Positions 8,588-63,443 of a DNA stretch of 64,000 nucleotides are shown one piece after another. Each line of letters starts with the position of its first letter. Position 1 is the first letter of the stretch. Both the position numbers and the translations under genes were made by a program. The stretch covers positions 36,976-100,975 of the forward strand of contig JAMJTW010000010.1 in NCBI GenBank assembly GCA_024281175.1, written 5' to 3'. The notes beneath the pieces were generated by a model. The model made no database searches, was not told the origin of the DNA, and saw only the letters and a program-made list of their open reading frames with translations. Source of the stretch: Candidatus Thiovulum imperiosus. GTDB lineage: Bacteria; Campylobacterota; Campylobacteria; Campylobacterales; Thiovulaceae.

Positions 8588-8705
8588 ATTCCAGAGATAA
8601 TAGTTTGTCCAGACTCTTCATCAGAAGTAACTCTAAAAGATGGGTCTTCTTGAGCAAGTTTTCCTAGAGCGATACCCATTTTCTCTTGGTTAGCTTTTGT
8701 TTTGA
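8588..8705 (-). pseudogene. Isolated internal fragment of fusA (copy of about 10038-10155)
   Basis: Nearly identical DNA to intact fusA over about 118 bp (attccagagatRatagtttgtccagactcttcatcag...ttctcttggtYagcttttgtttt). Confidence 0.85.
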
Positions 8706-16677: not shown

Positions 16678-19600
16678 ATGTTTTTTGAAAGTAGAAGAAA
16701 CTTTTTAAAAGGAACAGCTCTTGCCGTTGGTGGTGTTGCTGTTGCAAAGGGTGTTTTTAGTGGAGTCTCTCCAGAGTTAGAAGCATCTAGTGAATTCTCA
16801 ACTACTCCTGAAAATCTCGATTTCTATCCTCCTTTTGAAGAGTGGAAAGATTTCAACGAGTTAGATGGAGATGATTGGAAACGAGGTGGTATCGACCGAA
16901 AAGGTATTCAAAGTGAAAAAAATCCTGACGGTATTAAAGTAAATAACTTTACAATCGTTCCAACAGCTTGTTCTAACTGTGAGGCTTCTTGTGGTTTAAC
17001 TGCATGGGTTGATAAAGAGACAATGACAGTTAAGAAGTATATGGGTAACCCACTTCATGCTGGTTCTCGAGGTCGAAACTGTGCTAAAGGTTATGCTACT
17101 CAATCTCAAATGTATGACCCAGACCGAATTCCTTTCCCATTAAAAAGAGCTGAAGGTTCTAAACGGGGTGAAGGAAAATGGGTTAGAACAACTTGGGATG
17201 AAGCGATGACTACCATCGGTAAGAAGATGGGAGATACACTCCGAAATGGTGACGAGCTTTCTAAGAAATCTGTAATGTTCCATGTTGGACGACCAAATGA
17301 GAATGGATTTACTGGAAAAGTTTGGCACACTCTTGGAGTAGACTCTTTCAACTCTCACACAAATATCTGTTCATCAGGTGGTAGAACTCCTACAATTCAG
17401 TGGGCGAACGATGATAGGTCTTCACCAGACTGGGCAAACGCAAAACTTATTTTTCTAAACTCTTCCCATGCAGCTGATGCTGGTCACTACTTCCAACAAT
17501 CTGCTTCTTTCATTGCTGATGCAAGAAAGAAAGGTGCGAAAATGGTTGTTATGGATCCAAGACTCTCCAACTCAGCAGGTATTGCAGATTTATGGATTGC
17601 AGCTTGGCCTGGAACAGAACCAATCATCTATCTTTACATCGCAAACCGAATTCTCCAAGAGGGGAAAGTTGATAACGCTTTTGTAAAAAATTGGGTGAAC
17701 TGGGATAGATTTATAAAAAATAAGAACTATTTAGAGTTTATTGCTGAAAAGGGATATATCTCTGAAGTTCCAACTGGAGAAACTTACGAGGATTTCATCG
17801 AAGTTCTAAAAGAGCTTTATGCACCTTATACTCTCGATTACGCTTCTGAAGAGACTCATGTTCCAAAAGAGAAGTTAGAAGCTCTTTACGATATGTTCAT
17901 CTGGGCAGGAGATGCTGTTTCAACTTACTTCTGGCGTGCAGCAGCTGCTGGAAACCGAGGTGGTTGGATGTCTGGTAGGGCTGGTTTCTTACCACTTGTT
18001 CTACGAGGTGCAATTGGTTCAGAGGGAGGAACATTCTTCCATCATTGGCATGTTATCTCTGTTGCTGGAAAAGGTGGAAAATCGACAGTTGGAAATGGTG
18101 ATGTTCCAAAAGTTGACCACTGGAACGAACTTGCTTGGCCTCCAGAATGGCCGTTAAGTACTTATGAGATGTCTTATCTTCTTCCACATCTTCTTGCTGA
18201 TGAAGAGTGGCAACAGAAATGGACAGCTCGAGGCTTAAAAGTTCCAACAAAACTTTCAGTTTGGATACCAAGAATGTACAACCCAGTTTGGATTAATCCA
18301 GATGGTTTCCGATGGATAGATGTTCTTAAAGATGAGTCTAAAATGGAACTCACTTTCAACTTATCTCCAACTTGGTCTGAAACAAACTGGTATGTAGATT
18401 ACATCTTACCTGTTGGACTTGCTGGAGAGCGACATGACCAACACTCTGAAGCTACAATGCCAGGAAGATGGACTTCATTCCGACAACCTGTTTTAAGAGT
18501 AGCAATGGAACAAGCTGGTTGGAAAGCAAAAAATCCAAATCGTGCAACTCTTGAGGCTCATATCAAAGCTGGTCTTGGTGAGATTTGGGAAGAGAATGAG
18601 TTCTGGATGGATATGGCAGTAAACTATATTGACCCAACTGGAGACCTTGGTGTTCGAAAACATTGGGAGTCCAAAAAACATGCTGGAAAACCTGTTACGA
18701 TAGCTGAGTGGTATGATGCAGCATTCTCAAAACTTCCAAACCTTGTTAAAACTGCAAAAGCTAAATATCCAGATGCTGAATATCCAGTCTACTCTTACAT
18801 GAGAGACCACGGAACTTGGCTTGAGGAAGACAAGATTTATCACGCTCAAAAACGAGAACTTCATGAAAAAGTTGAAGAGGTTTATGATGCTTCAACTGAT
18901 ACTTATATTACAAAAGAGTGTTATGTTTCTCATGGACATAAGTACAATAAGAAGTTTGTTACAAAAGATGAGTATGGAACTCTTATCTATGAGCAAGATG
19001 GACATAAAAAAGCTATCGGTGTTGAAGTTGATGGAAAATTAAGAAGTGGTTTTGCAACTCTTTCCAAAAAACTTGAGTTCTTCTCTGAATGGTTAGCAGA
19101 GTGGAAGTGGCCAGAATATGCAATTCCTTTCTACCCTCGAAATGAGGAAGAGAAAGAGAGTATGGTTCATCTAGTTTCTCATGTTCATCATAAATATATG
19201 ACAGAGAAAAACGATAGAGGTGAAAAGAACTCTTTTGCACTCAACACAGTTTTCAGACTACCTTACAATATCCATACAAGAAGTGTGAATTCTAAACACC
19301 TTATGGAAATCTCTCAAAACCACGACCCTATCTGGATTTCTACTGGAGATGCAGAGCGACTTGGATTTAAACGAGGCGACGCTGTAAAAGTTAAAATTGT
19401 AGATAGTGTTTCTGGACTTGATAGCGGATATTTCGTAGGTATGGCTGTTCCAACAGAGGGTGTTCTTCCAGGAACTCTTGCTTGTTCTCATCACGGAGGT
19501 CGATGGAGAGTTGTAAATTCAGTTGAAATTCAAAACGGAAACGAGGGCGAATTCCAACCTGAAGGCTTTACTGGACAACTCGGTGTTATGGGAATTGGTG

Positions 19601-20025
19601 CTCCACTTGCTGAACTTGAAATGGTTGAGGAAGATGGCAAAGTTGGAAAACTCCGATGGAAAGAGGGTATCAAATCTGACCGAAAACCTTGGCAGTTCGC
19701 TGAATACAATAAAGATATTGATAATATCTGGTGGGACGGACTTTCAGGTGCATGGCAAAATGCCGTAGCTGCTCCTCACCCAGACCCAATTTCTGGAATG
19801 CACTGCTGGCACCAAAAAGTTCTTCTTGAACCTGTAAGCAGAGATGAGAAAATTGGTGATGTCTATGTAAATTATGACAACAACTTAAAAGTTTATCAAG
19901 CGTGGAGAGACGAACTAACTCGACCACTAAACTCTTCAGATAAACTTAGAAGACCAATGCACATCAAACGACCATGGGTTCCTATTTCTAAAAAAGGTTA
20001 CTCAGTCGAAATCAAAGATGTTTAG
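16678..20025 (+). CDS. Molybdopterin oxidoreductase catalytic subunit, TAT-exported (CISM superfamily)
   Basis: 1115 aa; SRRNFLKG Tat motif; Fe-S motif CSNCEASCGLTAW...GRNCAKG; order FeS-NrfD-catalytic. Confidence 0.88.
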   Translation: MFFESRRNFLKGTALAVGGVAVAKGVFSGVSPELEASSEFSTTPENLDFYPPFEEWKDFNELDGDDWKRGGIDRKGIQSEKNPDGIKVNNFTIVPTACSNCEASCGLTAWVDKETMTVKKYMGNPLHAGSRGRNCAKGYATQSQMYDPDRIPFPLKRAEGSKRGEGKWVRTTWDEAMTTIGKKMGDTLRNGDELSKKSVMFHVGRPNENGFTGKVWHTLGVDSFNSHTNICSSGGRTPTIQWANDDRSSPDWANAKLIFLNSSHAADAGHYFQQSASFIADARKKGAKMVVMDPRLSNSAGIADLWIAAWPGTEPIIYLYIANRILQEGKVDNAFVKNWVNWDRFIKNKNYLEFIAEKGYISEVPTGETYEDFIEVLKELYAPYTLDYASEETHVPKEKLEALYDMFIWAGDAVSTYFWRAAAAGNRGGWMSGRAGFLPLVLRGAIGSEGGTFFHHWHVISVAGKGGKSTVGNGDVPKVDHWNELAWPPEWPLSTYEMSYLLPHLLADEEWQQKWTARGLKVPTKLSVWIPRMYNPVWINPDGFRWIDVLKDESKMELTFNLSPTWSETNWYVDYILPVGLAGERHDQHSEATMPGRWTSFRQPVLRVAMEQAGWKAKNPNRATLEAHIKAGLGEIWEENEFWMDMAVNYIDPTGDLGVRKHWESKKHAGKPVTIAEWYDAAFSKLPNLVKTAKAKYPDAEYPVYSYMRDHGTWLEEDKIYHAQKRELHEKVEEVYDASTDTYITKECYVSHGHKYNKKFVTKDEYGTLIYEQDGHKKAIGVEVDGKLRSGFATLSKKLEFFSEWLAEWKWPEYAIPFYPRNEEEKESMVHLVSHVHHKYMTEKNDRGEKNSFALNTVFRLPYNIHTRSVNSKHLMEISQNHDPIWISTGDAERLGFKRGDAVKVKIVDSVSGLDSGYFVGMAVPTEGVLPGTLACSHHGGRWRVVNSVEIQNGNEGEFQPEGFTGQLGVMGIGAPLAELEMVEEDGKVGKLRWKEGIKSDRKPWQFAEYNKDIDNIWWDGLSGAWQNAVAAPHPDPISGMHCWHQKVLLEPVSRDEKIGDVYVNYDNNLKVYQAWRDELTRPLNSSDKLRRPMHIKRPWVPISKKGYSVEIKDV

Positions 20026-20040
20026 AACTTCCTAACATCT

Positions 20041-20058
20041 TTTCCCCACTTGGGGGAG
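20041..20058. terminator. Imperfect TTTCCCCACTTGGGGGAG hairpin after the molybdoenzyme gene
   Basis: Inverted repeat, same motif as at 24720-24737 and 32717-32734. Confidence 0.45.
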
Positions 20059-20097
20059 CTTCACTTTCTTGTAAAATTTCAAAAAAGGATTTTTGAA

Positions 20098-20331
20098 ATG
20101 GAAAAAGAGGAAAATCTAGTAAAAAAAACTTGTCGAGAATTGGGGATTACTCAAAAAGAGTTAGCTGAAAGAATAGGGGTTACGGAAAAAACTATTAGCT
20201 CATGGGCTAGAGAAAAAGTTGAAATACCAAAAAACTTTCCAAGACTCATTGAGTTATTAAAAATAGAACTAAGCTACAAAGAGATATTACAAGCCATTAA
20301 CAGAACTTCAAATTTACAAATTATAATTTAA
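20098..20331 (+). CDS. XRE-family HTH regulator (HTH-Rha module copy 1)
   Basis: ATG at 20098; LVKKTCRELGITQKELAERIGVTEKTISSWAREKVEIP; near-identical N-termini at 32791 and 63141. Confidence 0.8.
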   Translation: MEKEENLVKKTCRELGITQKELAERIGVTEKTISSWAREKVEIPKNFPRLIELLKIELSYKEILQAINRTSNLQIII

Positions 20332-20362
20332 GTATTGTAAAAATTTACATTTTACTATACAA

Positions 20363-20417
20363 TTTCTCTAACCAAGTAGAAACTGCAATTTCTATTTGAA
20401 AATCTCGATTAGAGAAA
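20363..20417 (+). promoter_or_regulatory. Structured leader upstream of rha copy 1
   Basis: Outer stem TTTCTCTAA(20363-20371)/TTAGAGAAA(20409-20417); inner 10-bp hairpin CAAGTAGAAA-CTGCAA-TTTCTATTTG (20373-20398). Same architecture with a compensatory change at 63386-63434. Confidence 0.65.
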
Positions 20418-20420
20418 ATT

Positions 20421-20969
20421 ATGGAACCAAATTTTAACATACAACTTTTAGAAATTATCGATGATGAACCAAGAATTTCACATGTAATTATTGCTGAATA
20501 CACAAACAACAATCCTATTTCAGTTAGAAAACTCATTGATAAATACCATAGCAAAATGGAACTTTTTGGAAAGGTGTCATTTCAAATGACACCTATAAAA
20601 AACTCGAAAAATCGGGTTAATGAAGAAAAAACTTATTTCCTAAACGAACCTCAAGCAACTCTACTTTTAACTTTTTTGCGAAACAATGAAATTGTTGTAA
20701 AGTTCAAGGTTGATTTAGTCAAAGTGTTTTACGAAATGCGAATGAAACTTCACAACAACACTCCTGTTTCAAAACTCTCTCTTTCTGAAACTGTTTCGCA
20801 AACTCGTGAAGCTCTGGAACTCATAGACCTTTTGAAAGAGCGAAAAGGTTTTGATTTGTTACTTTTGGAAAAGATTTTGAAAGAGAATTCTCCAACAAAA
20901 CTTTTAGAAATTGACTTTTCCCAGAAATTCCAAAAGAGATTGGGAATCTCTCCAATTTGCAATCTTTAA
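20421..20969 (+). CDS. Rha-family phage regulatory/antirepressor protein (copy 1; C-terminus replaced at an LRR junction)
   Basis: 182 aa; ISHVIIAEYTNN...TYFLNEPQATLLLTFLRNNEIVVKFKVDLVKVFYEMR; usual tail (FLPTELG.LLGISPHEMNLLLEKKGF) replaced after LLEIDFSQ. Confidence 0.75.
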   Translation: MEPNFNIQLLEIIDDEPRISHVIIAEYTNNNPISVRKLIDKYHSKMELFGKVSFQMTPIKNSKNRVNEEKTYFLNEPQATLLLTFLRNNEIVVKFKVDLVKVFYEMRMKLHNNTPVSKLSLSETVSQTREALELIDLLKERKGFDLLLLEKILKENSPTKLLEIDFSQKFQKRLGISPICNL

Positions 20970-21274
20970 GTTTGGGTTCAAACCAAATCATAGAAATTCC
21001 AAAAGAGATTGGGAATCTCTCTAATTTGCAATTTTTGTGTTTGTCTCAAAACCAAATCATGGAACTTCCAAAAGAGATTGGAAATCTCACGAATTTGCAA
21101 TCTTTGAATTTGCAAGGAAGCCAAATCACGGAACTTCCCTCTTCAATTAATAACTTAAGAAGAGTTAATCGCTCTTACAGTGGAAGCAATTGGATTTCCC
21201 CCTCTTCCAACGAAACCCCTTTCCAATTTCTGAACAGAGCTTTAGGATTGCCAGAAAAGAAAAGTCTTGATTAA
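20957..21274 (+). CDS. Leucine-rich repeat protein fragment
   Basis: 105 aa; LPKEIGNLTNLQSLNLQGSQITELPSSINNL repeats; no N-terminal domain. Confidence 0.6.
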   Translation: MQSLSLGSNQIIEIPKEIGNLSNLQFLCLSQNQIMELPKEIGNLTNLQSLNLQGSQITELPSSINNLRRVNRSYSGSNWISPSSNETPFQFLNRALGLPEKKSLD

Positions 21275-22283
21275 AACTCTAAAACTCAAAAATCTTGGAG
21301 TTGTAAAAAACCTAGAAGTCTCCTCTTTTGGAAATATCAATATTTTTATCGGAAAAAATGACTCTGGTAAAACTATGATTTTAAAAGCTCTCTACACAAT
21401 TGTTAAGAGTTTAGAAAACTTCAAAAAAGGTGATGACAGTAGAAGTTTTAAAGAAATTTTGAGTGAAAAGACTTTTTGGACTTTTCAAGTTGAAAAAGTT
21501 GGTGATTTAGTCTCAAAAGATAGAGAAGATAAATCGGAACACATCCAAATAGAGATAAATTGTCATAACCAGAAAGTTGGTTTTTCATTCAGCCATTCAA
21601 CGACAAAAAATATTTCCAACACTTTGGAAAGTCCTAAAAATAGAGAGGCAAACTCAATTTTTATTCCTGCTAAAGAGGTTCTTTCTCTCTTCTCAATTAT
21701 CAGAAACTCAAGAACAGTTGATAAGGTTTTTGGATTTGATGATACTTTTCTTGACTTGGTAAATGCTCTTGAAAAAGAGCCTCAAAAAGGTCGGCAATAT
21801 CAAAGTTTTGTTTCAAGTAAGGAGAAACTAAATTCTCTTCTCTCTGGAAAAATAACTCTTAAAAATGGAAAGTGGATTTTTGACAAAAATAAGATGAAAA
21901 TCTCTATTCACTCTACTGCTGAAGGAATTAAAAAAATTGGTGTTCTTGATAGACTTATTTCAAATAGATTTTTAACTCCAGAAAGCATGGTTTTCATTGA
22001 TGAACCAGAAGCATTTTTACATCCTCAAGCAATTTTAGAGTTTTTAGATATTTTAGAAATTCTCTCTAAAAATGGGATACAGATTTTTATTGCTACTCAC
22101 TCCTATTTTGTAATTAAGAAGTTGATGATAATTGCTAAAAAATCAGATATGGATATTCCCCTTATTTCACTTTTAGAAAACGGAGAACATGAAATCTCAA
22201 ATTTAAAAACTGATGTTTTAGATAACTTAATTATTGATACTTCTATAAAATTGTATGAAGAAGAGATAGAAATTGAATGGTAG
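21267..22283 (+). CDS. AAA (SMC/OLD-like) ATPase
   Basis: 338 aa; Walker A GKNDSGKT, Walker B MVFIDEPEAFLHP, IATHSYF. Confidence 0.85.
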   Translation: MIKTLKLKNLGVVKNLEVSSFGNINIFIGKNDSGKTMILKALYTIVKSLENFKKGDDSRSFKEILSEKTFWTFQVEKVGDLVSKDREDKSEHIQIEINCHNQKVGFSFSHSTTKNISNTLESPKNREANSIFIPAKEVLSLFSIIRNSRTVDKVFGFDDTFLDLVNALEKEPQKGRQYQSFVSSKEKLNSLLSGKITLKNGKWIFDKNKMKISIHSTAEGIKKIGVLDRLISNRFLTPESMVFIDEPEAFLHPQAILEFLDILEILSKNGIQIFIATHSYFVIKKLMIIAKKSDMDIPLISLLENGEHEISNLKTDVLDNLIIDTSIKLYEEEIEIEW

Positions 22284-22633
22284 TTATTGAAGAGTCTGAA
22301 ATAAGTTTTCAATTTGAAGATGCCGATGAAGTTTATCAAATTGAAAAAGATAGCTTTTATAAAAACAGATCATCAAAATATGGTGAAAAAGATGTTGATT
22401 TCATATTTTTAAAAGATAGACAGCTCTTTTTTATTGAAGCTAAAAAGTCTGTTCATCAAGATTTAGAAAAATATATCACAGAATTATCGAAAAAACTAAT
22501 CGATAGCTTTAATATCTACTCTGCGATATTATCAAACAAATTAGAAAGTAGAGAGATTTCAACTCTTTTTGAGATTTCAATATTTGTATTTAATCAAGAA
22601 CAAGCTATTTCAAAAGGTTTAGTACAAAAATAG
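22277..22633 (+). CDS. Small protein with PD-(D/E)XK-like motif, translationally coupled to the ATPase
   Basis: 118 aa; DVDFIFLKDRQLFFIEAKKS; 7-nt overlap with the ATPase gene. Confidence 0.55.
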   Translation: MVVIEESEISFQFEDADEVYQIEKDSFYKNRSSKYGEKDVDFIFLKDRQLFFIEAKKSVHQDLEKYITELSKKLIDSFNIYSAILSNKLESREISTLFEISIFVFNQEQAISKGLVQK

Positions 22634-22670
22634 TGGAGTTTCTCCAGAAAATTTAGATTGGAAAAACTGA

Positions 22671-22676
22671 TATAAT
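22671..22676 (+). promoter_or_regulatory. Candidate -10 box (TATAAT) for the DRT RNA
   Basis: Perfect TATAAT in the intergenic region about 370 bp upstream of the RT. Confidence 0.5.
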
Positions 22677-22682
22677 TTTAGA

Positions 22683-23035
22683 ACCATGTCTATTTGAGAT
22701 GTGAGGAAACTGTTAGAATTGCTGAAAGAAGAATTCTTCTTATCAGCATCAGATGGATCGAGTGTTTCATAACATTCCTTTCAATACTTCACTAAGTATA
22801 CTAACAGTAAGCTTTGAGGCTTTAAACCCAAGAAAGGTAGTTAGCAACTACTGTAGATTTGACGAAATCTATGCCCGAATGTGGATTTTTTTGTCTCAAT
22901 AACAAAACAGCAAACCATTGATAAACTAAAGTAATCTCATATTTAAGCTCTGTGGGTTAGAGCAAGTATTACTTTGAGTTTTGAGAGGCAGGTAGTAAAG
23001 TAGAGTGAGACTGCTTTGCCACCATTTGGAAAAGA
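22683..23035 (+). ncRNA. Candidate DRT2-type template ncRNA upstream of the RT
   Basis: About 350-nt intergenic stretch with many hairpins: GCTGA-AAGAAGAATTCTTCTTA-TCAGC (22721-22747), GTAGTT-AGC-AACTAC (22837-22851), TAGATTT-GACG-AAATCTA (22854-22871), AAGTAAT...GCTCT...AGAGC...ATTACTT (22929-22974), GGCA...TGCC (22987-23020). Confidence 0.6.
22763..22891 (+). other. Putative 129-nt rolling template unit encoding a stop-free 43-aa repeat ('neo'-type frame)
   Basis: One frame has no stop from 22726 to 22899; unit bounded by TGTTTCA (22763) and TGTCTCA (22892), exactly 129 nt = 43 codons apart; translation VFHNIPFNTSLSILTVSFEALNPRKVVSNYCRFDEIYARMWIF. Confidence 0.4.
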
Positions 23036-23041
23036 GTAAGT

Positions 23042-24469
23042 ATGAAAGATAATTATATAAAGAGAGTTAAAAAGTGTGGTTGGTATGAACAGAAATCATA
23101 TTTACACTTTGACACTCCATTAAGTTTTGAAAAAGCTCTAAAAAAAGTATCTAATCCAAAATATGTTGAAAAACACCCTTTTCTTCCATTTCTTAGATTT
23201 ACTAAAGAGGAGAGAAAATTTAATCCTAAAAAATATGGAGAAGAGAGATATAAAACAAAAAATAGAGAAATTTCATATGCAAGTCATAAAGATGGCTATA
23301 TTTACAGCTACTATGCAAAAATGTTAAATGGTGGATATGAAACCTTGCTAAAAAACTATGAGCTTGAAAATAATGTTTTAGCTTTTAGAAAAATTGAAAA
23401 AGATGATGGCAAAGGAAAAAGTAATATAGATTTCGCAAAAGAGGTTTTTGAAAAAATAAAAAGTTTTGAAGAGTGTAGTGTTTTAGCAATGGATTTTTCA
23501 AAATTTTTTGATACTTTAGACCATCAGCTTCTAAAAGAGAAGTGGTCTCGAGTTTTAAATGTAGATAAGTTACCAGAAGACCATTTTAAAGTTTTTAAAT
23601 CACTAACAAAGTTCTCTTTTATTGATAGAGATAAAATATATTGTAAATTAGGCATTTCACGACACAACCCAAAACCAAAAAATAAAAATAGAGTGGCTAT
23701 CTGTGAGAAAGAAAACTTCCAAAAACTTAGAGAAATTATCAAAGAAGATAAGGAGCAAGTTCCAAATAGAGAGAAAAGATTACTTCAAGTAAATGATAAT
23801 GGTTTTGGAATTCCTCAGGGTTCAGCATTGAGTGGGCTTCTCTCAAATATTTACATGATTGATTTTGATAAAGAAGTAAAAAAATATATAGAAAGTTCAG
23901 GTGGAAAATATTATAGATATTGTGATGACATAATCATTATTGCAAAATTTGGAGAAGTTGATAAAGTAGAAAAAGTAATTTTAGATAAATTTGTTAAAGA
24001 GCTAAAAACTGTTCAGATAAATAAAGATAAAACAGAAAAGTTTCATTTTTACAATGGAAGAATACTTGGTAATAAATTATTGCAATATTTAGGTTTTATG
24101 TTTGATGGTCAAAATATATACTTTCGTTCATCTTCAATTTCTCGGTATTATCGCAAAATGAATAGAGGAATAAGAGTTGCGAAGAAAACTCAACTGACAA
24201 GAAATAGAGTTAGAAGAAAAAAAGGTTTTAAAGAGAGAGAACTTTATAAAAATAGAATCTATGAGTTATATCCATCTATGGGAAAAAGAAATTTTATAAC
24301 TTATGTAAAAAGAGCTATTAGAAATATGGATAATAGTCCTACTTTAAAAAAACAGATGAAAAAATTTCAAAAGATGTTTGATAAAAGAATGAAACAGCAT
24401 GAAAAACCACCTAAAAAGAATAATCATCCTTCAAAAAATATTTTTTGTAAAAACTTACTGAATAATTAA
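23042..24469 (+). CDS. Antiviral reverse transcriptase, UG/DRT2-like
   Basis: 475 aa; HFDTPLSFEKA...HPFLPFLRF, SNIDFAKEVFEKI, MDFSKFFDTLDH, GIPQGSALSGLLSNIYM, catalytic YCDD; no maturase or endonuclease domain recognised. Confidence 0.8.
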   Translation: MKDNYIKRVKKCGWYEQKSYLHFDTPLSFEKALKKVSNPKYVEKHPFLPFLRFTKEERKFNPKKYGEERYKTKNREISYASHKDGYIYSYYAKMLNGGYETLLKNYELENNVLAFRKIEKDDGKGKSNIDFAKEVFEKIKSFEECSVLAMDFSKFFDTLDHQLLKEKWSRVLNVDKLPEDHFKVFKSLTKFSFIDRDKIYCKLGISRHNPKPKNKNRVAICEKENFQKLREIIKEDKEQVPNREKRLLQVNDNGFGIPQGSALSGLLSNIYMIDFDKEVKKYIESSGGKYYRYCDDIIIIAKFGEVDKVEKVILDKFVKELKTVQINKDKTEKFHFYNGRILGNKLLQYLGFMFDGQNIYFRSSSISRYYRKMNRGIRVAKKTQLTRNRVRRKKGFKERELYKNRIYELYPSMGKRNFITYVKRAIRNMDNSPTLKKQMKKFQKMFDKRMKQHEKPPKKNNHPSKNIFCKNLLNN

Positions 24470-24473
24470 GAGT

Positions 24474-24704
24474 TTCTGGAACTGCTGGCACCAAAAAGTT
24501 CTTCTTGAACCTGTAAGCAGAGATGAGAAAATTGGTGATGTCTATGTAAATTACGATAATAACTTACAAGTTTATCAAGCGTGGAGAGACGAACTTACTC
24601 GACCTCTTAACTCTTCAGATAAACTTAGAAGACCAATGCATATCAAACGACCTTGGGTTCCTATTTCCAAAAAAGGTTACTCGGTCGAAATCAAAGATGT
24701 TTAG
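24474..24704 (+). pseudogene. Duplicated 3' end of the molybdoenzyme catalytic gene
   Basis: Matches about 19793-20025 plus downstream terminator, with scattered mostly synonymous differences and a small deletion at the 5' edge. Confidence 0.92.
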
Positions 24705-24719
24705 AACTTCCTAACATCT

Positions 24720-24737
24720 TTTCCCCACTTGGGGAAA
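24720..24737. terminator. Perfect hairpin TTTCCCCACTTGGGGAAA
   Basis: 8-bp inverted repeat with 2-nt centre. Confidence 0.5.
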
Positions 24738-24739
24738 CT

Positions 24740-24961
24740 TCAGTTTTGATTTTTTTCTATCTGGTTGTGAATAAAAAATAGCCTATCTTTTATATCCATT
24801 GTTTCAAGAGCATTTATTAAAACTTCAATATAAGTTGGAACTTCATCTTTCTTTTTCCAATAAGCAGATGGTGTGCTTTTGTCAATATTTAACATTAGAG
24901 CCAAATCTCTATTAGAAAGTTTTATCTCTTTTAATTTATCTCTAAATGTATTGTAATTCAA
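24740..24961 (-). CDS. Small HTH-type DNA-binding protein
   Basis: 73 aa; MNYNTFRDKLKEIKLSNRDLALMLNIDKSTPSAYWKKKDEVPTYIEVLINALE. Confidence 0.55.
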   Translation of the reverse strand: MNYNTFRDKLKEIKLSNRDLALMLNIDKSTPSAYWKKKDEVPTYIEVLINALETMDIKDRLFFIHNQIEKNQN

Positions 24962-25106: not shown

Positions 25107-25322
25107 AATTTAACAGTAAAGGAAGTTTGCCAATATTTAGGTGTTAATCAAAAGGAGTTAGCACAAATTACAGGATATTCAGTTGATACTGTGTCTAAAT
25201 GGAATAGAAGTGTGAATAAAATTCCAAATAGTGCTTTAAACCACTTTAAACTCCTTATTGAAAATAATAGATATAAAAGAATAGATATTCTACTAAAACA
25301 AATAAATGATTTGACAAAATAG
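25107..25322 (+). pseudogene. XRE-type HTH remnant or non-ATG-start HTH of a module
   Basis: Frame reads NLTVKEVCQYLGVNQKELAQITGYSVDTVSKWNRSVNKIPNSALNHFKLLIENNRY...; no ATG found. Confidence 0.5.
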
Positions 25323-25347
25323 CATATATTCTATTACAATAGACAAA

Positions 25348-25371
25348 AGAGAGTTAATGTAACAACTCTCT
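25348..25371 (+). promoter_or_regulatory. Hairpin between HTH remnant and Bro-N gene
   Basis: AGAGAGTT-AATGTAAC-AACTCTCT, perfect 8-bp stem. Confidence 0.4.
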
Positions 25372-25394
25372 GTCAAACTTAAAACAAGGCAAAC

Positions 25395-26231
25395 TATGGA
25401 AATAATGCCGTTTAATTATGAAAATAAAACAATAAGAGCTTTTACAGATAAAAGAGGAAATGTTTGGTTCTCTATAAAAGACTTAGCTAAAGTTCTTGAG
25501 CTATCTAACAGTAGCCAAACTACAGTAGCCAAACTACAACAGATTTACGAAAAGAATATAAAAATATTAATATAGACAAAATTATTTCAACTCATGAAGT
25601 AAGAACTAAAGGAGGTATTCAAAACTTAACTATCATTTCAGAAATAGGAGTAAGAAAGGTTATTGCAAGAGCAAATAAGAAAACTTCAGAGTTTAAAACA
25701 AAATTTCTTAAATCTTTAGGAATAAAAGGAGAATTCTTAGTTGATACTAAAGAGACTAGATTTGGAAGTGAATTGAAAAATTTCATACAAACTATTTATA
25801 GCTTGGAGGTTGAAACTCAGTATCCCGTAAAAAATTACAAACTTGATTTTTATATTTCAGAACTAAACTTAGCTATTGAATTTGATGAAAAACACCACAA
25901 ATATCAAAAAGAAGAAGATGAAAAAAGAGAAAAAGAAATTGAAAATGTTTTGAATTGTAAATTTATTAGGGTTTCCGAAGAAAAATCTATCGGTGAGCAA
26001 TTGGGTTTAGTAATAAAAGCAATAAATGAAAAACCTAAAAAAGAGATTTCTCTCTCAAAACGACAAAAACAGATTTTAGAATATTTACAAAATCAAAAAC
26101 TTTCAACAAAAGAGCTATCTGAAAAACTTGGTTATTCAAAATCAACAATTTTAAAAGATTTAAAGTTTCTTATTGAAAATGGAAAAGTGGAAAAAATCAA
26201 AAGTGGAAGAAATATTTTCTACAAAATATAA
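25395..26231 (+). pseudogene. Bro-N / nuclease-like / HTH protein, frameshifted by a 14-bp tandem duplication
   Basis: ATG at 25395: MEIMPFNYENKTIRAFTDKRGNVWFSIKDLAKVLELSNSSQT..; removing one copy of ACAGTAGCCAAACT (25508-25535) restores the frame into YKLDFYISELNLAIEFDEKHHKYQ...; the C-terminal part is ORF 25773-26231. Confidence 0.75.
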
Positions 26232-26422
26232 ATTTTCTTCCAACAGAACTTGGAAAACTTCTTGGAATTTCTCCACATGAAATGAATTTGCTTTTGGAGA
26301 AAAAGGGTTTTCAAGAAAATGAAAATGGAATTTGGAAAATTACAGAAAGTGGAAAAAGTTTTGGAATGGAAATTGGAGGAAAGTTTTCACAACTCAAATG
26401 GAGAGTGGAAAGTATTGTATAA
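26229..26422 (+). pseudogene. Rha C-terminal tail remnant
   Basis: Frame FLPTELGKLLGISPHEMNLLLEKKGFQENENGIWKITESGKSFGMEIGGKFSQLKWRVESIV*. Confidence 0.75.
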
Positions 26423-26446: not shown

Positions 26447-26677
26447 ATGAAGAAAGCAATAAATATCAGAATGGAAGAGGAACTTCTAAAAAATTTGGAT
26501 AGCTATGCAAAAGAGCTAGATAGAACTAGAACATACCTCATCGAAAAGGCAGTAACTCTCTATTTGGATACTTTAGATGGAATGGTTTCAGACAAAAGAA
26601 TTGATGATGTCAAAAGTGGAAAAAGTGAAGTCTATTCACTTCAAGAAGTTGCTCAAAAATTGGGACTAGATGTATAA
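26447..26677 (+). CDS. Ribbon-helix-helix (CopG/RelB-like) antitoxin
   Basis: 76 aa; INIRMEEELLKNLDSYAKELDRTRTYLIEKAV. Confidence 0.75.
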   Translation: MKKAINIRMEEELLKNLDSYAKELDRTRTYLIEKAVTLYLDTLDGMVSDKRIDDVKSGKSEVYSLQEVAQKLGLDV

Positions 26678-26921
26678 AATCATCATTCCTGAACATACTT
26701 TCAAAGAACTTTCTAAAATAGATAAACCAAATCAGCAACTTGTTTTTAACAAAATCAAAGATTTAGAAAGTGGAATTTTTACAGGAGATAAACCTTTAAA
26801 AGGAAAACATCAGGGCAAGTTCCGAAAAAGGGCTGGAAATTATCGAATTATCTATTTAAAAGAGAACAATATTCTTCTTATTACAGTTATCAGAATTACA
26901 CATAGAAAAGAGATTTATTAA
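26670..26921 (+). CDS. RelE/ParE-family toxin
   Basis: 83 aa; overlaps antitoxin; GKFRKRAGNYRIIYLKENNILLITVIRITHRKEIY. Confidence 0.8.
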   Translation: MYKIIIPEHTFKELSKIDKPNQQLVFNKIKDLESGIFTGDKPLKGKHQGKFRKRAGNYRIIYLKENNILLITVIRITHRKEIY

Positions 26922-27179
26922 GTGGAAATTAAAGAAAAAATAGATTTAAACAAAACTCTTGTCGATATTATTCACAAGAAGATTTTAATTCTTTTGGGTG
27001 CTGTTGCAGGAAGTTGGTTTTATGGTTTGGAGTTTACGAAGAATGAAAATATGGCATTTTATCTTTTTGGAGTAGTGCTATTTTTGCTTTTTATATTTTT
27101 AAGTTTTGGAATAATCATAAATTATCTAAAACTCTCAAAATTGGAAAATGAGTTAGAGGAGTTAAAAAATGGAGAGTAA
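26922..27179 (+). CDS. Small membrane protein (two predicted TM segments)
   Basis: 85 aa, GTG start abutting the toxin stop; two hydrophobic stretches. Confidence 0.5.
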   Translation: MEIKEKIDLNKTLVDIIHKKILILLGAVAGSWFYGLEFTKNENMAFYLFGVVLFLLFIFLSFGIIINYLKLSKLENELEELKNGE

Positions 27180-27276
27180 TATTTTTGAGGTTCTATTTCC
27201 AGCAGGTTTTATAGTTACTGGAATTACAGCATATTTTGCACATAAATATAATTGGAAAATTGCAAAGTGGTTTTAA
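27169..27276 (+). CDS. Very small single-TM protein
   Basis: MESNIFEVLFPAGFIVTGITAYFAHKYNWKIAKWF*; overlaps the previous ORF. Confidence 0.35.
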   Translation: MESNIFEVLFPAGFIVTGITAYFAHKYNWKIAKWF

Positions 27277-27581
27277 ATGAGATAATTTTTCGACTCCAAA
27301 AGCTAAATAGAGAGTTTGAAAAAGTTGGTTTCTATATTATTGGAGTTTTTGGAAGTTATGCGAGAGGTGAAAATAGAGAAGATAGTGATTTAGATATTCT
27401 CTATAAAATAGATAATAAGTTTGTAGAAAAATTTGGGGGTTGGAGTGCAATTATTGAGATTGAGAAGATAAAGTCAAAAATAGAGAAGAGTTTGAATATC
27501 TCAAAAGTTGATTTGGCAACATCAGATACAAATAATCAAACATTACAGAATGCTATTCAAAAGGAGCTTGTTTTTGTCTAA
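27252..27581 (+). CDS. mntA: MNT-type nucleotidyltransferase antitoxin
   Basis: 109 aa; GSYARGENREDSDLDILY. Confidence 0.85.
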   Translation: MENCKVVLNEIIFRLQKLNREFEKVGFYIIGVFGSYARGENREDSDLDILYKIDNKFVEKFGGWSAIIEIEKIKSKIEKSLNISKVDLATSDTNNQTLQNAIQKELVFV

Positions 27582-27915
27582 GAGTGATATTGAAAGATTG
27601 AGGTTTGCATTTGAAAAAGTTGAAGATGCTCTAAATTATAGAGATAGTTTTGAGAGTATTGAAAAACTTTTAAATTCAAAAATGGGCTTTGACGCAACAA
27701 CAATGTGTATTATGCAAGTTGGAGAGACTCTTAATAAATTAGATAAAAGTTTTGCAAAGAAGTATCCACAACTACCAATTAAAGAGAGTTATTTAACAAG
27801 AAACTATATAGCTCACGATTACGAAGGAGTTAGTAAGATGATAATTGAGGTGATTATTAGAGAACATTTTCCAAAATTGAAAAATGATATTTTAGATATT
27901 TTGAGAAATAGATGA
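27574..27915 (+). CDS. hepT: HEPN-domain toxin
   Basis: RNYIAHDY (RX4H) motif; likely TTG start at 27574 with AAGGAG at 27561; overlaps the MNT gene. Confidence 0.82.
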   Translation: MSKSDIERLRFAFEKVEDALNYRDSFESIEKLLNSKMGFDATTMCIMQVGETLNKLDKSFAKKYPQLPIKESYLTRNYIAHDYEGVSKMIIEVIIREHFPKLKNDILDILRNR

Positions 27916-29222
27916 AACTTGAATGGAAGAAAGATGAAAATCTTTTAGGAGGATACAGGGCAGTTTTATATGGAAATATTGATTATGGTTTAGAAGATTT
28001 TGAACTATTTATTAAAAACAAACTTGAGACAACTAACTTAACTACTAAAGATATTTATCCATATTCTGATTTAGAAGATTATTTCAGAACAATATTTGGA
28101 TTTTCAGCTTTTCAACATATAAAAGAAGATGATATACGAGTTGGACATTCGAGTATATCAATTAGAAAAATAGAACTAATTGATAGTTTGCATTTCACCT
28201 CTTTACTATTAAGAGACCATCTCAAAAAAATTTATATAGATAATTGTATTTTTCATAAATATATCATTTTTCCTCAATATCAAGATATAGAAACAGTGGA
28301 AATTAAAGAATCTAATTTTAAATTATTTCTTAATATATCAGTATTTCGTATTCTAAAAACATTGGTTTTATATAAAAATAGTGTCAATTTTCTTAGAATA
28401 GATAATTCAGTATTTAGAAAAGATTCGATTTTACATTTTCAAGATTTACAAATAAGAGATTTTGGATTTTTTCACATTGTTCAAAACTGGCATGAAGCTA
28501 TTTTTAAAAATATCATTGTTAGTAGAACTCTAAAATTAGAAAGTGTTGATTTTGCAAAAGCTAAATTTATAAATTGTGATTTTTCTCAATGTGAAATTTC
28601 AATTTCTGATTCTGTCTCTTTCAAAGATGCAATTTTCAATTCTATAAAATGGGGAGATATTTCAAGAATTAAAGCATCACGGGATATTTTCCGCCAACTA
28701 AAATTCGTAAATGATTCTCAAGGAAATATTATTGAGGCTAACCGTTTCTATGCTGAAGAGATGAGAAGATATAAAAATGAGATAGAGGAAAATCCTGAAA
28801 AATTCTCTTTTCAAGATAGAGCTATTTTCTGGTTAAATGAAAAGGTCTCTAACTTTGGACAAAACTACTTTTTACCTATTTTCTGGTTTTTTGTAATAAC
28901 AATGCTCTTTATAATTGGAACTCAAGATATAGATTTTCAAGATGATAAAGTCATAGTAGGCTCTATTCTACTACCAATCTATTTTTCAACTCTATTTCAT
29001 AAATTTACAAAAACATCTGAAGCACTGTTTTTTATAACTGCTTTAATCACAATCTACTACTTTTCTGTATTCGATATTTCTATAAATGAAATAGCAAACT
29101 TTTCAAATATAAAAAATGAAAGTTACAAAGAGTTCTATTTCCTCTGGTTTCTTCATAAAGCCATTCTCTCAGTTCTAGTTTACCACTTAACAATCACCCT
29201 CCGTCGCCAAACCAAAAGATAA
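27912..29222 (+). CDS. Pentapeptide-like repeat protein with C-terminal transmembrane segments
   Basis: 436 aa; FAKAKFINCDFSQCEISISDSVSFKDAIFNS; then IEANRFYAEEMRRYKNEIEENPEKFSF and several hydrophobic helices. Confidence 0.6.
   Translation: MKLEWKKDENLLGGYRAVLYGNIDYGLEDFELFIKNKLETTNLTTKDIYPYSDLEDYFRTIFGFSAFQHIKEDDIRVGHSSISIRKIELIDSLHFTSLLLRDHLKKIYIDNCIFHKYIIFPQYQDIETVEIKESNFKLFLNISVFRILKTLVLYKNSVNFLRIDNSVFRKDSILHFQDLQIRDFGFFHIVQNWHEAIFKNIIVSRTLKLESVDFAKAKFINCDFSQCEISISDSVSFKDAIFNSIKWGDISRIKASRDIFRQLKFVNDSQGNIIEANRFYAEEMRRYKNEIEENPEKFSFQDRAIFWLNEKVSNFGQNYFLPIFWFFVITMLFIIGTQDIDFQDDKVIVGSILLPIYFSTLFHKFTKTSEALFFITALITIYYFSVFDISINEIANFSNIKNESYKEFYFLWFLHKAILSVLVYHLTITLRRQTKR
29206..29222 (+). repeat. 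17-bp direct repeat, left copy (GCCAAACCAAAAGATAA)
   Basis: Identical to 29799-29815; flanks the RelE-type TA pair. Confidence 0.9.
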
Positions 29223-29231
29223 GGAACTAAA

Positions 29232-29486
29232 ATGCAACAAACTTATAAACTAACGATAGATGAGTCAATAGCAGATAAAATTTTGTGGTTGTTGAACAGT
29301 TTGAAAGAGAATATCAGTATTGAAAAAGTTGAAACAGAAAGAGATAATAGTTTCTTGTCTTCTCTTTCTCAAGAAAAACAGATTGAAGCAAAAGAGATAA
29401 TTTCAAGTATTCAAAATGGTTTAAATGATGTCAAAAATGGAAAAATTCACTCAATTGAAACTCTTTGGGATAAATTAGATGATTGA
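29232..29486 (+). CDS. Antitoxin of RelE-type pair
   Basis: 84 aa acidic protein overlapping the following RelE-like gene. Confidence 0.55.
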   Translation: MQQTYKLTIDESIADKILWLLNSLKENISIEKVETERDNSFLSSLSQEKQIEAKEIISSIQNGLNDVKNGKIHSIETLWDKLDD

Positions 29487-29796
29487 TTATTCGGATAATT
29501 TTCTTAAAGAGGTCAAACAACTTTCAAAGAAATTCAAACGAATAAAATTTAATTTGCAAATATCAATTAGAGAAATTGAAGAGAACATACTTGGTGCTCC
29601 TCTCAAAAATCACCTTTACAAAAAAAGAGTTCCAAACTCTTCAATTCCAACAGGAAAAAGTGGAGGTTTCAGGATTATTCTTTTTAAAAAGGTAGAAAAC
29701 AACATAACACTTTTATCAATATTTTCAAAAACTGAAAAAGAGAACTTGACAAATAAAGAGCTAGAAAAAATTCTTAGTGAAGTTAATTTTATTTAA
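29479..29796 (+). CDS. RelE-like toxin
   Basis: 105 aa; YSDNFLKEVKQLSKKFKRIKFNL...GKSGGFRIILFKKVENNITLLSIFSKTEKENLT. Confidence 0.65.
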   Translation: MIDYSDNFLKEVKQLSKKFKRIKFNLQISIREIEENILGAPLKNHLYKKRVPNSSIPTGKSGGFRIILFKKVENNITLLSIFSKTEKENLTNKELEKILSEVNFI

Positions 29797-29929: not shown

Positions 29930-30163
29930 GGACAGCTTCGGTTTCAAACCGAGAGTGTAAGCAATTCGGTAGGTGCAGTAAACGAACAGAAAACTTATTG
30001 GGATTTCTTCGCACGAAATGAATTTACTTTACTTTTGGAGAAAAAAGGTTTTCAGGAAAATGAGGACGGAGTTTGGAAAATTACAGAAAGTGGAAAAGAG
30101 TTTGGAATGGAGATTGGAGGAAAGTTTTCACAACTGAAATGGAGAGTAGATACAATATTGTAA
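29930..30163 (+). pseudogene. Rha remnant (internally deleted)
   Basis: FGQLRFQTESVSNSVGAVNEQKTY followed directly by the tail NEFTLLLEKKGFQENEDGVWKITESGKEFGMEIGGKFSQLKWRVDTIL*. Confidence 0.75.
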
Positions 30164-30166
30164 AAA

Positions 30167-32455
30167 ATGAAAAAAATTGAAAGACAACTACAAGGGGAAT
30201 TTCTCCATGTCTTTAAAACTCTTTTTTCTGAAGAGAAATATAGAGACTTTGAAATTATTCAAGAGGAGGAGAGAGCAGATTTAATAGTTTCTAAAAGTGG
30301 AAAAGCTCTTTTCTTTCTGGAGTTGAAAGACCCGTTGGTAGTTAAAAGTTCTGGAGATGCGGAAACTTTTAAAAGAGAAACTTTACGAGCAGTTAGAATT
30401 GGTATTCCACATTTTGGAATTACAAATTTTGTGGAGGCAAGTATCTACTCTTTGCAAGTAGAAACCAAGGAAAACTACGAAAACAGAGATTTTCCAAAAC
30501 TTTCAGATATAGAGAGATACCGAAATAGTAAAACAGTTTCAAAAGATTTAAATAGAAAGCTCCAAAATTTAGCAATTTGGTATCTCAAAAAAGCAGAAGC
30601 GATTTTCTTAAAAGGTGACATTCCAGAACAAGCTCCAGATGAAATTTTTATTTTGAAACTTCAAAGAGGAATTGAGCGATTTGGATTTAAAATTTCAGAA
30701 AGAGTTTTTGAAAAGTATCAGAAGAGTAGAGATTTTGCAATAGAGATACAGAACTACTTTCAATCTCAACAGTGGAGTATTCCAACAGAAGAAGCTGATT
30801 TCGACAATTTTTCACACATTGCTGTTTTACAATTTGTCTCAAAAATCATTTTTTACAACTCTATAAAAGATTTTGGAAAGTATGGATTAGGTGAAATTGA
30901 TAAAGATGATATTTGGAACTCTTTTGAGGAATTGAAAGAGAAGACTGGAAATTTTGAACTTCTGATTGGAGAGAATAGTTTTCTTGAAAGTAAGGTAGTA
31001 GAAGATTTTTCAAAAGAGATAGCTGATGAGGTTCTGGAAAATTCAGAGAAGTATAACTTTTCCAAAATGAAAGAGGACATCATCGGGCGAATTTTTGAGG
31101 AACTAATAAAACCGAATGAGAGACACAAATTAGGACAGTACTTCACCTCATCAGCAGTTGTAAAAACTGTAAATGCTTTTTGTATTCGAGAAGCGAACCT
31201 TAAAGTTCTTGACCCAAGTTGCGGTTCAGGTGCATTTCTTACAGAGGTTTATGAGAGGAAAAAAAGTTTAGGAGAGAAAGACCACACCAAACTTTTAGAA
31301 GAGATATATGGAGTTGATATTTCAAGCTACCCATCTTATTTAGCAACTCTCAATCTAGCAATTCGGAATTTAGGCGAAAAGTCCTATCCTCGAATTGTTC
31401 AGAAAGATTTCTTCCAAGTTGCGAAGAGTTTGGAAAAGTCTGTTTCAAAAGAGAAAATTCATGATAGCGATGGGGTAGAGCAAGAAGTCGAATTTACACA
31501 ATTTGATGCAATTGTTGGAAATCCTCCATACACTCGACAAGAGGATATTGATGCCTACAATCCAAATCAGAAAGAGCAAATTTTAGAGACTCTAGCTTCA
31601 GAGTTGGGAGGTTTTACAAAACATATTTCAAAACGAACTTCAATTTATGCCTATTTCTTCTATCGAGCAAAACGACTTTTAAAAGATGGTGGATACCTCG
31701 GTTTTATAACTTCAAACTCTTGGCTTGATGTCGATTTTGGCGAAACTCTTCAAAAACATCTTCTTAAAAACTTTCATGTCGTCGCAATCATCGATAGCAA
31801 AGTTGAACGATTTTTTGAAAGTGCTGATGTCAATACAAATATCACTATTTTGAAAAAAGGGAAAGGGAAAAGAACTAAATTTGTCTATCTAAAAAAACCT
31901 CTTTCGGAAGTTCTAAAAAAGTTTGGTGGTGAAATTGGATTTAGGGATTTTATAGAAGAGCAGAACACTCTTTTTGAAGATGAGTTCTTAAGAGTAAATC
32001 CAGTTTCTCAATGCCGACTCTCCAAAGATACGAAATGGAGCAAATACCTAAAAGCCCCTAAAGTCTATTGGGAAATCTTGAAAAAAGGTAAAGGGAAATG
32101 GAAGAGATTGGGGGATATTGCAAATGTAAGATTTGGAGTAAAAACAGGTGCAAATGAGTTTTTCTATTTAGAGAAATTGGAAGAAAAAGGAGACTCCTAT
32201 CTTCTAAAAAATGGAATTGGTGAAGAAGTTCTAATTGAGAAAAGGTTTATAAAACCTGTCATCAAATCTCCTCGAGAAATTAAAGGTTTTGTTGTAAAAC
32301 CTGAAGAACTTAAATATTCGGTTCTTATGGTTTCGGGTCTTGAACGAGAAGAGATTTCAAAGAAATTTCCAAATCTTGAAAGATACTTGAAAAGAGGTGA
32401 AGAACGAAACTACCATGAGAGAAGCTCACTTAAAAGTAGGCGAAAAGAGTTCTAA
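30167..32455 (+). CDS. Eco57I-like type IIG restriction-modification enzyme, apparently truncated
   Basis: 762 aa; nuclease-like ADLIVSKSGKALFFLELKDP; methylase LDPSCGSGAFL and NPPY; ends at NYHERSSLKSRRKEF* where a target-recognition domain would normally follow. Confidence 0.8.
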   Translation: MKKIERQLQGEFLHVFKTLFSEEKYRDFEIIQEEERADLIVSKSGKALFFLELKDPLVVKSSGDAETFKRETLRAVRIGIPHFGITNFVEASIYSLQVETKENYENRDFPKLSDIERYRNSKTVSKDLNRKLQNLAIWYLKKAEAIFLKGDIPEQAPDEIFILKLQRGIERFGFKISERVFEKYQKSRDFAIEIQNYFQSQQWSIPTEEADFDNFSHIAVLQFVSKIIFYNSIKDFGKYGLGEIDKDDIWNSFEELKEKTGNFELLIGENSFLESKVVEDFSKEIADEVLENSEKYNFSKMKEDIIGRIFEELIKPNERHKLGQYFTSSAVVKTVNAFCIREANLKVLDPSCGSGAFLTEVYERKKSLGEKDHTKLLEEIYGVDISSYPSYLATLNLAIRNLGEKSYPRIVQKDFFQVAKSLEKSVSKEKIHDSDGVEQEVEFTQFDAIVGNPPYTRQEDIDAYNPNQKEQILETLASELGGFTKHISKRTSIYAYFFYRAKRLLKDGGYLGFITSNSWLDVDFGETLQKHLLKNFHVVAIIDSKVERFFESADVNTNITILKKGKGKRTKFVYLKKPLSEVLKKFGGEIGFRDFIEEQNTLFEDEFLRVNPVSQCRLSKDTKWSKYLKAPKVYWEILKKGKGKWKRLGDIANVRFGVKTGANEFFYLEKLEEKGDSYLLKNGIGEEVLIEKRFIKPVIKSPREIKGFVVKPEELKYSVLMVSGLEREEISKKFPNLERYLKRGEERNYHERSSLKSRRKEF

Positions 32456-32702: not shown

Positions 32703-32716
32703 AAAAAGGAAACTCT

Positions 32717-32734
32717 TTTCCCCACTTGGGGAAA
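32717..32734. terminator. Perfect hairpin TTTCCCCACTTGGGGAAA
   Basis: Same motif as 24720-24737. Confidence 0.5.
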
Positions 32735-32790
32735 CTTCACTTTCAAACACATTTTTCTGATAGAATTTTTTCAAAAATAGGGTTTATCGA

Positions 32791-33015
32791 ATGGAAAATA
32801 CTAATGAAAACTTAGTTAAAAAGACCTGCCGAGAACTCGGTATAACTCAAAAGGAGTTGGCAAATTTTTTCGGTGTATCTCAAAATACTATAACAACTTG
32901 GGGAAAAGGAAACTTAAATAAAGTTCAAGAAACAGCTTTAAATGGTTTAATATTCCAACACAGATATAACAACACGAAAAAATTACTAAGCGGTATTGTA
33001 AATCAAAATTATTGA
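32791..33015 (+). CDS. XRE-family HTH regulator (HTH-Rha module copy 2)
   Basis: NLVKKTCRELGITQKELANFFGVSQNTITTWGKGN. Confidence 0.8.
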   Translation: MENTNENLVKKTCRELGITQKELANFFGVSQNTITTWGKGNLNKVQETALNGLIFQHRYNNTKKLLSGIVNQNY

Positions 33016-33670
33016 CGACGAACCAAGAATTTCACATCGTGTAATTGCTGAACATACAAATAATCAGCAGAAAAATGTTGTCGAGCTTATTCAAAAATAC
33101 ATCGATAAATTCGAGCTTTTTGGAGCGGTTCCGTTTAAAACGGAAGTGCTAAAAGCTGGAAGGGGAACAACAAAAGCTAAAACTTATTTCCTAAACGAAC
33201 CTCAAGCCACTTTACTTTTAACCTTTTTACGAAACAATGAAATTGTTGTAGAGTTCAAAGTTGATTTAGTCAAAGTGTTTTACGAAATGCGAATGAAACT
33301 TCAAAACCATACCCCTTCTCAAAAACTCTCTCTTTCTGAAACTGTTGCCGAAACTGAAATTGCCTTAAAACTCATAGACCTTTTAAAAGAGAGCAAAGGT
33401 TTCGATTTGCTACTTTTGGAAAAGGTTTTGAAAGAGAGTTCACCAACAAAACTTTTAGAAATAGACTTTTCTCAAACCTACTTTCTTCCAACAGAACTCG
33501 GACAACTTCTTGGAATTTCTCCGCATGAAATGAACTTGCTTTTGGAGAAAAAAGGCTTCCAAGTTTCTAAGAACGGAGTTTGGAAAATTACAGAGAGTGG
33601 AAAAAGTTTTGGAATGGAGATTGGAGGAAAGTTTTCACAACTGAAATGGAGAGTAGATACAATTTTGTAA
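33009..33670 (+). pseudogene. Rha-family protein copy 2, start region deleted (first ATG 33146)
   Basis: Frame reads KIIDDEPRISHRVIAEHTNNQQKN...TYFLNEPQATLLLTFLRNNEIVVEFKVDLVKVFYEMR...FLPTELGQLLGISPHEMNLLLEKKGF; no start codon for the conserved N-terminus. Confidence 0.65.
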
Positions 33671-33677
33671 AAAATAT

Positions 33678-62879: not shown

Positions 62880-63110
62880 ACAATTGAAGAAACTTTGCAA
62901 ATAGGAAGCTACTCCCTTTCAGAACTTCTAAACTTTTCAGAAATCATTTTTGTAAATGAAGAAACTCTAAAGTTGTAGAACTTTTCAAGAACTGGAAAAC
63001 TTCACGGTCTTTCTCCAGTTGAAACAAATTTGGAACTCCAAAAGCAAGGTTTTCAAGAAAAGGAAAATGGAAGTTGGAAACTCTATTTCGAAACTAAAGT
63101 TCCGACTTCT
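62880..63110 (+). pseudogene. Decayed Rha-like C-terminal remnant
   Basis: Contains TGGAAAACTTCACGGTCTTTCTCCAGTTGAAAC, also present at 63967-64000 in rha copy 3, then LQKQGFQEKENGSWKLYFET. Confidence 0.6.
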
Positions 63111-63140
63111 ATTTTTGTAAAATTTCAGAAAAGGATTTTT

Positions 63141-63365: not shown

Positions 63366-63385
63366 TATATATAAGATTATAATAG

Positions 63386-63434: not shown

Positions 63435-63443
63435 ACTAATTAA

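Follow-up and report, generated by a model that had tools for sequence, protein, structure and literature searches.

We examined a 64,000-nt window (the whole stretch of DNA analysed) from the genome of the giant sulfur bacterium Candidatus Thiovulum imperiosus, referred to here as G000 (36 contigs, 2.20 Mb). In this window, an intact gene for a molybdoenzyme large subunit is directly followed by a 13.7-kb island reaching ~33,700, and in the left portion of the island 4.7 kb of putative defence cargo is bracketed by two copies of the 3′ end of that gene. The genomes used for comparison were that of the sister species (G001) and those of further family members (G002, G003 and G004, the last being one contig). 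Orthologues of the molybdoenzyme gene are present in four family members at 80-89% identity, with one full copy apiece. The features that make up the repeat are the following:

16678..20025, + strand: molybdoenzyme large-subunit gene, intact (1115-aa open reading frame, ORF), whose 3′ end is the one duplicated
19790..20067, + strand: repeat copy 1, the last 78 codons, stop codon and terminator (repeat alignment and genome search)
24470..24480, no strand assigned: novel joint, 3 nt past the stop codon of a reverse transcriptase (RT) gene, then TTTCTGGA in common with copy 1, then a 4-nt deletion
24473..24746, + strand: repeat copy 2, a displaced 3′ end that has the stop codon and the terminator but no start codon (repeat alignment)
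32714..32744, + strand: third copy, terminator alone (31 bp, 29 identical)

The direct repeat 19802-20067 and 24481-24746 has an offset of 4679 and an identity of 95% over 266 nt. Gapped alignment lengthens it to 19790-20067 and 24473-24746 with a single 4-nt gap, a deletion in copy 2, and at the 5′ edge copy 1 reads TTTCTGGAATGCACTGC against TTTCTGGA----ACTGC in copy 2. The copies differ by 14 substitutions, 11 within 74 codons and 3 beyond the terminator hairpin; ten of the 11 coding differences are synonymous third-position changes, while the remaining one replaces K with Q. A sequence-only reading of the window had described a 3′ end that recurs at offset 4679 with its stop codon and terminator hairpin, and about a dozen substitutions, mostly at third positions, plus a 4-nt deletion, and both descriptions were confirmed. 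Searching the whole genome with the repeat gave three matches, namely itself, a 94% copy (E 2e-118) and the 31-bp piece at window 32714-32744 (E 2e-6). The hairpin core, CCCCACTTGGGG, was found at three sites only (both copies and 32714) among the 448 kb of G000 examined.

The same trace was found at other core genes. We surveyed the surroundings of arrays of helix-turn-helix (HTH) units, which are described below, in G000 and G004, taking at most 20 kb per stretch, and searched each non-unit ORF of at least 150 aa against its own stretch (488 ORFs including those of this window). Truncated copies were detected for the molybdoenzyme gene, the isocitrate dehydrogenase gene (idh), atpD and fusA in G000, and for kdsD in G004. 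The idh copy holds the last 220 residues at 87% DNA identity and looks older, judging by its sequence; the atpD copy holds the last 219 bp at 99.5%, together with an internal 60-bp piece, and the kdsD copy 136 bp at 99.3%. The fusA copy lies within the present window:

8588..8703, − strand: displaced internal fusA fragment (coding sequence (cds) 1249-1364; 116 bp, 95.7%; 4 of 5 changes synonymous)

The fragment lies downstream of fusA at a distance of 618 bp, and next to it is degenerate sequence of RelE-like and HTH-leader type. Every copy lies downstream of its gene and on the same strand, and the C-terminus is included in all except fusA; perhaps this one-sided placement reflects selection, in that cargo behind a gene may be tolerated and cargo between promoter and gene may not. 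The copies range from 31 to 664 bp in length, and their 5′ edges vary between genes as well as within prfA. Only one 3′ end each of idh, atpD and kdsD is present in the relatives, as far as found. The further matches of the survey were to antirepressor or lipoprotein/caspase genes, which are themselves cargo, and one was an inverted repeat. At atpD (L164, G000 C28:80000-99900), cargo follows the gene in G000 and G001, and in G002, G003 and G004 the next gene reads by eye as atpC. We did not locate atpC in G000, and glyA was not found near fusA in the relatives within the flanks examined.

At prfA, up to three extra 3′ ends were identified in G000, beside HTH arrays, and toxin-antitoxin, caspase-domain and HTH-unit genes lie between the copies. 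Contig C1 breaks off within the resident prfA. Two copies lie on the 6-kb contig C32, one a 534-bp 3′ copy (95.9%) and the other decayed, and contig C31 has a 3′ copy at 7697-7932, about 95% identical over the 185 bp that can be compared with resident prfA. The copies start at cds 519, 835 and 869, hence the joint positions are variable. In G001, prfA is single-copy with a convergent gene within about 75 bp downstream, and the gene directly past the last G000 copy is the orthologue (48.7%) of the gene after G001 prfA. Since the distal copy adjoins this orthologue, it is the original prfA end, and the end now joined to the intact gene is a later one. Neither a recombinase nor an RT was found among the ORFs scanned at this locus. 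Contig C32 (L119, 6037 bp) has prfA sequence at both ends, which overlap by 53 bp; it is therefore either a circle or an internal part of the prfA island.

When the coding differences of the molybdoenzyme gene, prfA copies P1 and P3 (the latter, 7 of 9 synonymous, counted by eye from the alignment) and fusA were pooled, 38 of 47 were synonymous, versus 21-27% expected under neutrality. This excess holds even if half of the differences are placed on the unconstrained copy (P 0.002-0.008). It indicates that the copies were alleles of working genes until recently, as is expected for DNA of another lineage, and the earlier proposal that the divergence points to separate functional alleles, over drift of a local duplicate, is supported by both the 10 of 11 and the 38 of 47 counts. 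A diversity-generating retroelement was also considered as a source of the changes and rejected, since they are mixed and mostly at third positions, and not adenine-directed.

The island downstream of copy 1 contains the following features:

20066..20331, + strand: HTH unit head, a dispersed-repeat leader and an XRE-like HTH gene (HTH_3 6e-8)
20421..20969, + strand: Rha antirepressor gene, C-tail gone from about 20923 (Phage_pRha 5e-14; intact relative at 33006-33670)
20957..21274, + strand: leucine-rich-repeat (LRR) gene fragment (LRR_14 1e-20; three 69-nt repeats)
21267..22283, + strand: HEC-02A-like ATPase, candidate defence gene (PADLOC HEC-02A E 4e-130; AAA_21 2e-20)
22277..22633, + strand: HEC-02B-like partner (PADLOC HEC-02B E 3e-18; 7-nt overlap with the HEC-02A gene)
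22640..23041, + strand: non-coding stretch 5′ of the RT gene, putative DRT2 non-coding RNA (ncRNA), by position (no ORF of at least 60 aa listed)
23042..24469, + strand: DRT2-type RT (PADLOC Drt2 E 5e-152 over residues 10-451; YCDD motif)
25115..26422, + strand: second HTH unit, with HTH, Bro-N-like remnant, DUF559-winged HTH gene and Rha C-tail
26447..29796, + strand: toxin-antitoxin block, with RHH/ParE, nucleotidyltransferase/HepT, a gene without assignment and a RelE pair
29989..30168, + strand: Rha C-tail remnant (85.6% to 33501-33675)
30167..32455, + strand: Eco57I-like restriction-methylase (PF07669 5e-28; PADLOC REase_MTase_IIG 2e-47)
32752..33670, + strand: final HTH-Rha unit, with which the island ends on the right

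The matches to HTH_3, Phage_pRha, LRR, HEC-02A/HEC-02B and Drt2 bear out the cargo named in the sequence-only reading (HTH-Rha, LRR fragment, ATPase-nuclease pair, ncRNA-RT), and its remark that no integrase is visible agrees with the lack of any recombinase match among the longer ORFs of the island, to which the scan was confined. HEC-02 is called from neighbouring A and B genes, and both are present here, with the B match spanning about the first 93 residues. Only 2 genomes among the 399 of the order were found to have a DRT2 RT, which makes its import very probable; a search of the genome contigs for DRT2 relatives gave a single distant match, which was uninformative. A tRNA-associated island was rejected, as the window has no tRNA. 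Another LRR gene, with many similar internal repeats, is located at window 37680-40196; the LRR fragment of the island is only about 70% similar to it and is thus probably of other origin.

The HTH units belong to a family of HTH-antirepressor cassettes, found at window 20066-20923, 25115-26422, 32752-33670 and 62985-64000 and at loci L060-L092. About 40-50 DNA matches per genome were detected in G000, G001 and G004 (53 in G000), often in tandem with a spacing of 1.1-1.25 kb. Adjacent cassettes have in common a near-identical head (leader and EENLVKKTCRELGITQKELAE) and C-tail, while they differ in the recognition helix of the HTH, and their second gene has its N-domain exchanged among Rha, KilA-N and Bro-N. 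From these sequences, the family looks like a repertoire of repressor-antirepressor pairs. In one island of the sister species (L082, G001 C25:17500-24884), the leader of the HTH unit matches that of the unit behind the G001 molybdoenzyme gene. There, an OmpA-like gene has a Bro-N start fused to it and adjoins a membrane gene that is MotA-like, an arrangement that is Zorya-like by eye, and the toxin-antitoxin pair of this island resembles that at window 29232-29796.

We consider it probable that the 4.7-kb segment is one step of integrase-free accretion by homologous and illegitimate joining of allelic DNA. DNA of another strain, carrying a molybdoenzyme 3′ end and defence cargo, would enter the resident gene on the left side by RecA-type homologous exchange, and on the right side it would be joined without substantial homology inside the 3′ region of the resident gene. 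This could occur either by homology-facilitated illegitimate recombination of linear DNA, which has been invoked for displaced 3′ ends and immunity arrays of the Vibrio type VI secretion system (T6SS; PMC5361080), or by a single crossover with a circle that includes a portion of the gene 3′ end, as in E. coli, where truncated circles gave 109-950-bp duplications of the target-gene end (PMC3240628). The new cargo would then lie directly behind the gene, which would keep one full 3′ end and so suffer no damage, and the other 3′ end and the older cargo would be displaced downstream. Repeated rounds would leave tandem cargo blocks with ever shorter 3′-end remnants between them, and we infer from the longer copy near the gene and the distant terminator remnant that the rounds were successive, with the newest nearest the gene. 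By analogy with prfA, where the distal copy is the original end, copy 1 may be the import at the molybdoenzyme locus. The sequence-only reading had taken the second copy for the foreign one; comparison with the relatives favours neither.

A homologous anchor on one side was found at this locus (the 266-bp repeat at 95%) and likewise at prfA, idh, atpD and kdsD. Genes for ComEC and DprA are present in the genome and would make uptake of free DNA possible; we infer that the donor was another strain and that natural transformation was the route. Entry by recombination with DNA carrying a homologous 3′ end, which kept the resident gene intact, had been proposed in the sequence-only reading and is supported by the duplicated ends and their synonymous divergence. 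That part of the proposal stands, with the extension that more than one event is indicated: the terminator is present three times, and the same trace is seen at prfA, idh, atpD and fusA and, in G004, at kdsD.

Several observations weigh against accretion from another strain. Neither a donor haplotype nor an empty site for the molybdoenzyme gene was found among the relatives. G002, G003 and G004 have a single molybdoenzyme 3′ end each, with differing downstream DNA, and the gene past the G000 island is not adjacent to the molybdoenzyme gene in the relatives, so that no clean ancestral junction can be drawn; the G001 contig stops about 200 bp past the gene, already within another HTH unit. The two copies are nearest to each other (about 95%, versus 75-82% to the relatives), which is because no further strain of the species was in the comparison. 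The joint at 24470-24480 has no long homology, and any microhomology in it would show only against the donor sequence. The idh copy shows 48 synonymous and 35 non-synonymous differences (35/83 non-synonymous), and the atpD and kdsD copies, at 99% identity, show no sign of another lineage. In addition, the G000 assembly does not fix the contig order at prfA, and as the survey was confined to the surroundings of HTH arrays, an association of the trace with these islands is tentative.

Among the alternatives, a site-specific element that targets gene 3′ ends survives best, although it is unlikely. In E. coli icd, e14 and phage 21 leave the gene intact with an element-borne alternative 3′ end and the original end at the far side, by means of a site-specific integrase and a fixed attachment site. 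An element of this type, bringing a 3′ end of its own and either lacking its former integrase or mobilised in trans, would fit the anatomy seen here (an intact gene, an alternative 3′ end with synonymous changes and a displaced original end), and the initial 73 nt are identical in both copies, like a shared core. However, the ORFs scanned at the molybdoenzyme gene and at prfA include no recombinase, several unrelated genes are targets, with fusA struck internally, and the copies, 31 to 664 bp long, begin at three positions in prfA alone. The differing 5′ edges, within prfA and between genes, argue against a single attachment core.

Chimeras with short overlaps across a few kb are known products of multiple displacement amplification. 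The Ca. T. imperiosus genome was obtained from a single cell by this type of amplification (PMC9938260), which makes a chimeric joint, formed at that step or during assembly, a serious rival. Nonetheless, amplifying one genome cannot yield 14 substitutions, nearly all synonymous, for which two haplotypes are required; the kdsD trace recurs in the one-contig G004, which is taken to be the nanopore-assembled Ca. T. stygium, and the distal prfA copy sits beside its ancestral neighbour. On these grounds we regard an artefact as quite improbable. Local duplication of the 3′ end in this strain, through unequal crossing over or replication slippage around the cargo and followed by divergence, has equally little probability. 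The closeness of the two copies to each other and the 99% identity of the atpD and kdsD copies would suit it, but a dead copy should gain non-synonymous changes, contrary to the synonymous counts given above (10 of 11; 38 of 47 pooled), and cargo such as DRT2 is foreign, so import occurred regardless. Finally, that the adjacent RT copied the mRNA 3′ end into DNA is extremely improbable: copy 2 does cover the 3′ end of the mRNA, with its terminator, and starts 3 nt past the RT stop codon, but the same anatomy occurs at prfA, where the ORFs scanned include no RT. Moreover, copy 2 is a diverged allele and does not reproduce the resident mRNA, and the template described for DRT2 is its own ncRNA (PMC12039810).

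An integrase is missing from many defence islands, which raises the question of how they gain cargo. Under integrase-free accretion, a displaced allelic 3′ end of a core gene is a record of acquisition that gives insertion point, polarity and rough relative age. If this is true, acquisitions could be counted and ordered in any genome by means of the truncated 3′ ends that lie behind core genes, and it would become testable whether homologous recombination at core genes, and not dedicated mobile elements, drives island turnover. A bolder and unlikely extension is that Thiovulaceae run an active integrase-free transfer of defence genes, as blocks or perhaps circles that move between strains and each carry a 3′ allele of the core gene they lie behind, with conserved HTH-antirepressor units as extra joints; the 6-kb prfA contig could be such a circle.

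The island shares with e14 and phage 21 the intact gene, the alternative 3′ end with synonymous changes and a displaced end beyond, and differs from them in that no integrase was seen among the ORFs scanned and the 5′ edges are not fixed. As for the DRT2 defence system, in which an upstream structured ncRNA templates a repetitive gene (PMC11100668, PMC12039810), the island likewise has a Drt2-family RT with a non-coding stretch upstream (about 400 nt without long ORFs). In the island the ncRNA and a repetitive gene made from it are putative, and DRT2 is cargo and not the cause of the repeat. The truncated-circle conjugation in E. coli (PMC3240628) is alike in that the inserted DNA is flanked by 109-950 bp duplicated from the end of the target gene; that was a laboratory plasmid, whereas here the duplications are natural, affect several genes and involve diverged alleles. 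In the literature searched for earlier cases of defence cargo displacing the 3′ ends of core genes, the closest account is the work on Vibrio T6SS arrays (PMC5361080), in which a module is inserted at a conserved anchor and the 3′ end and older genes are displaced downstream with no integrase. The displaced gene there is a variable effector, while in Thiovulaceae a conserved housekeeping anchor stays intact and the cargo, present at several unrelated sites, consists of genes against phages and of toxin-antitoxin genes. Displacement of this sort, seen repeatedly at core genes of Thiovulaceae, is a new form of a known type of event.

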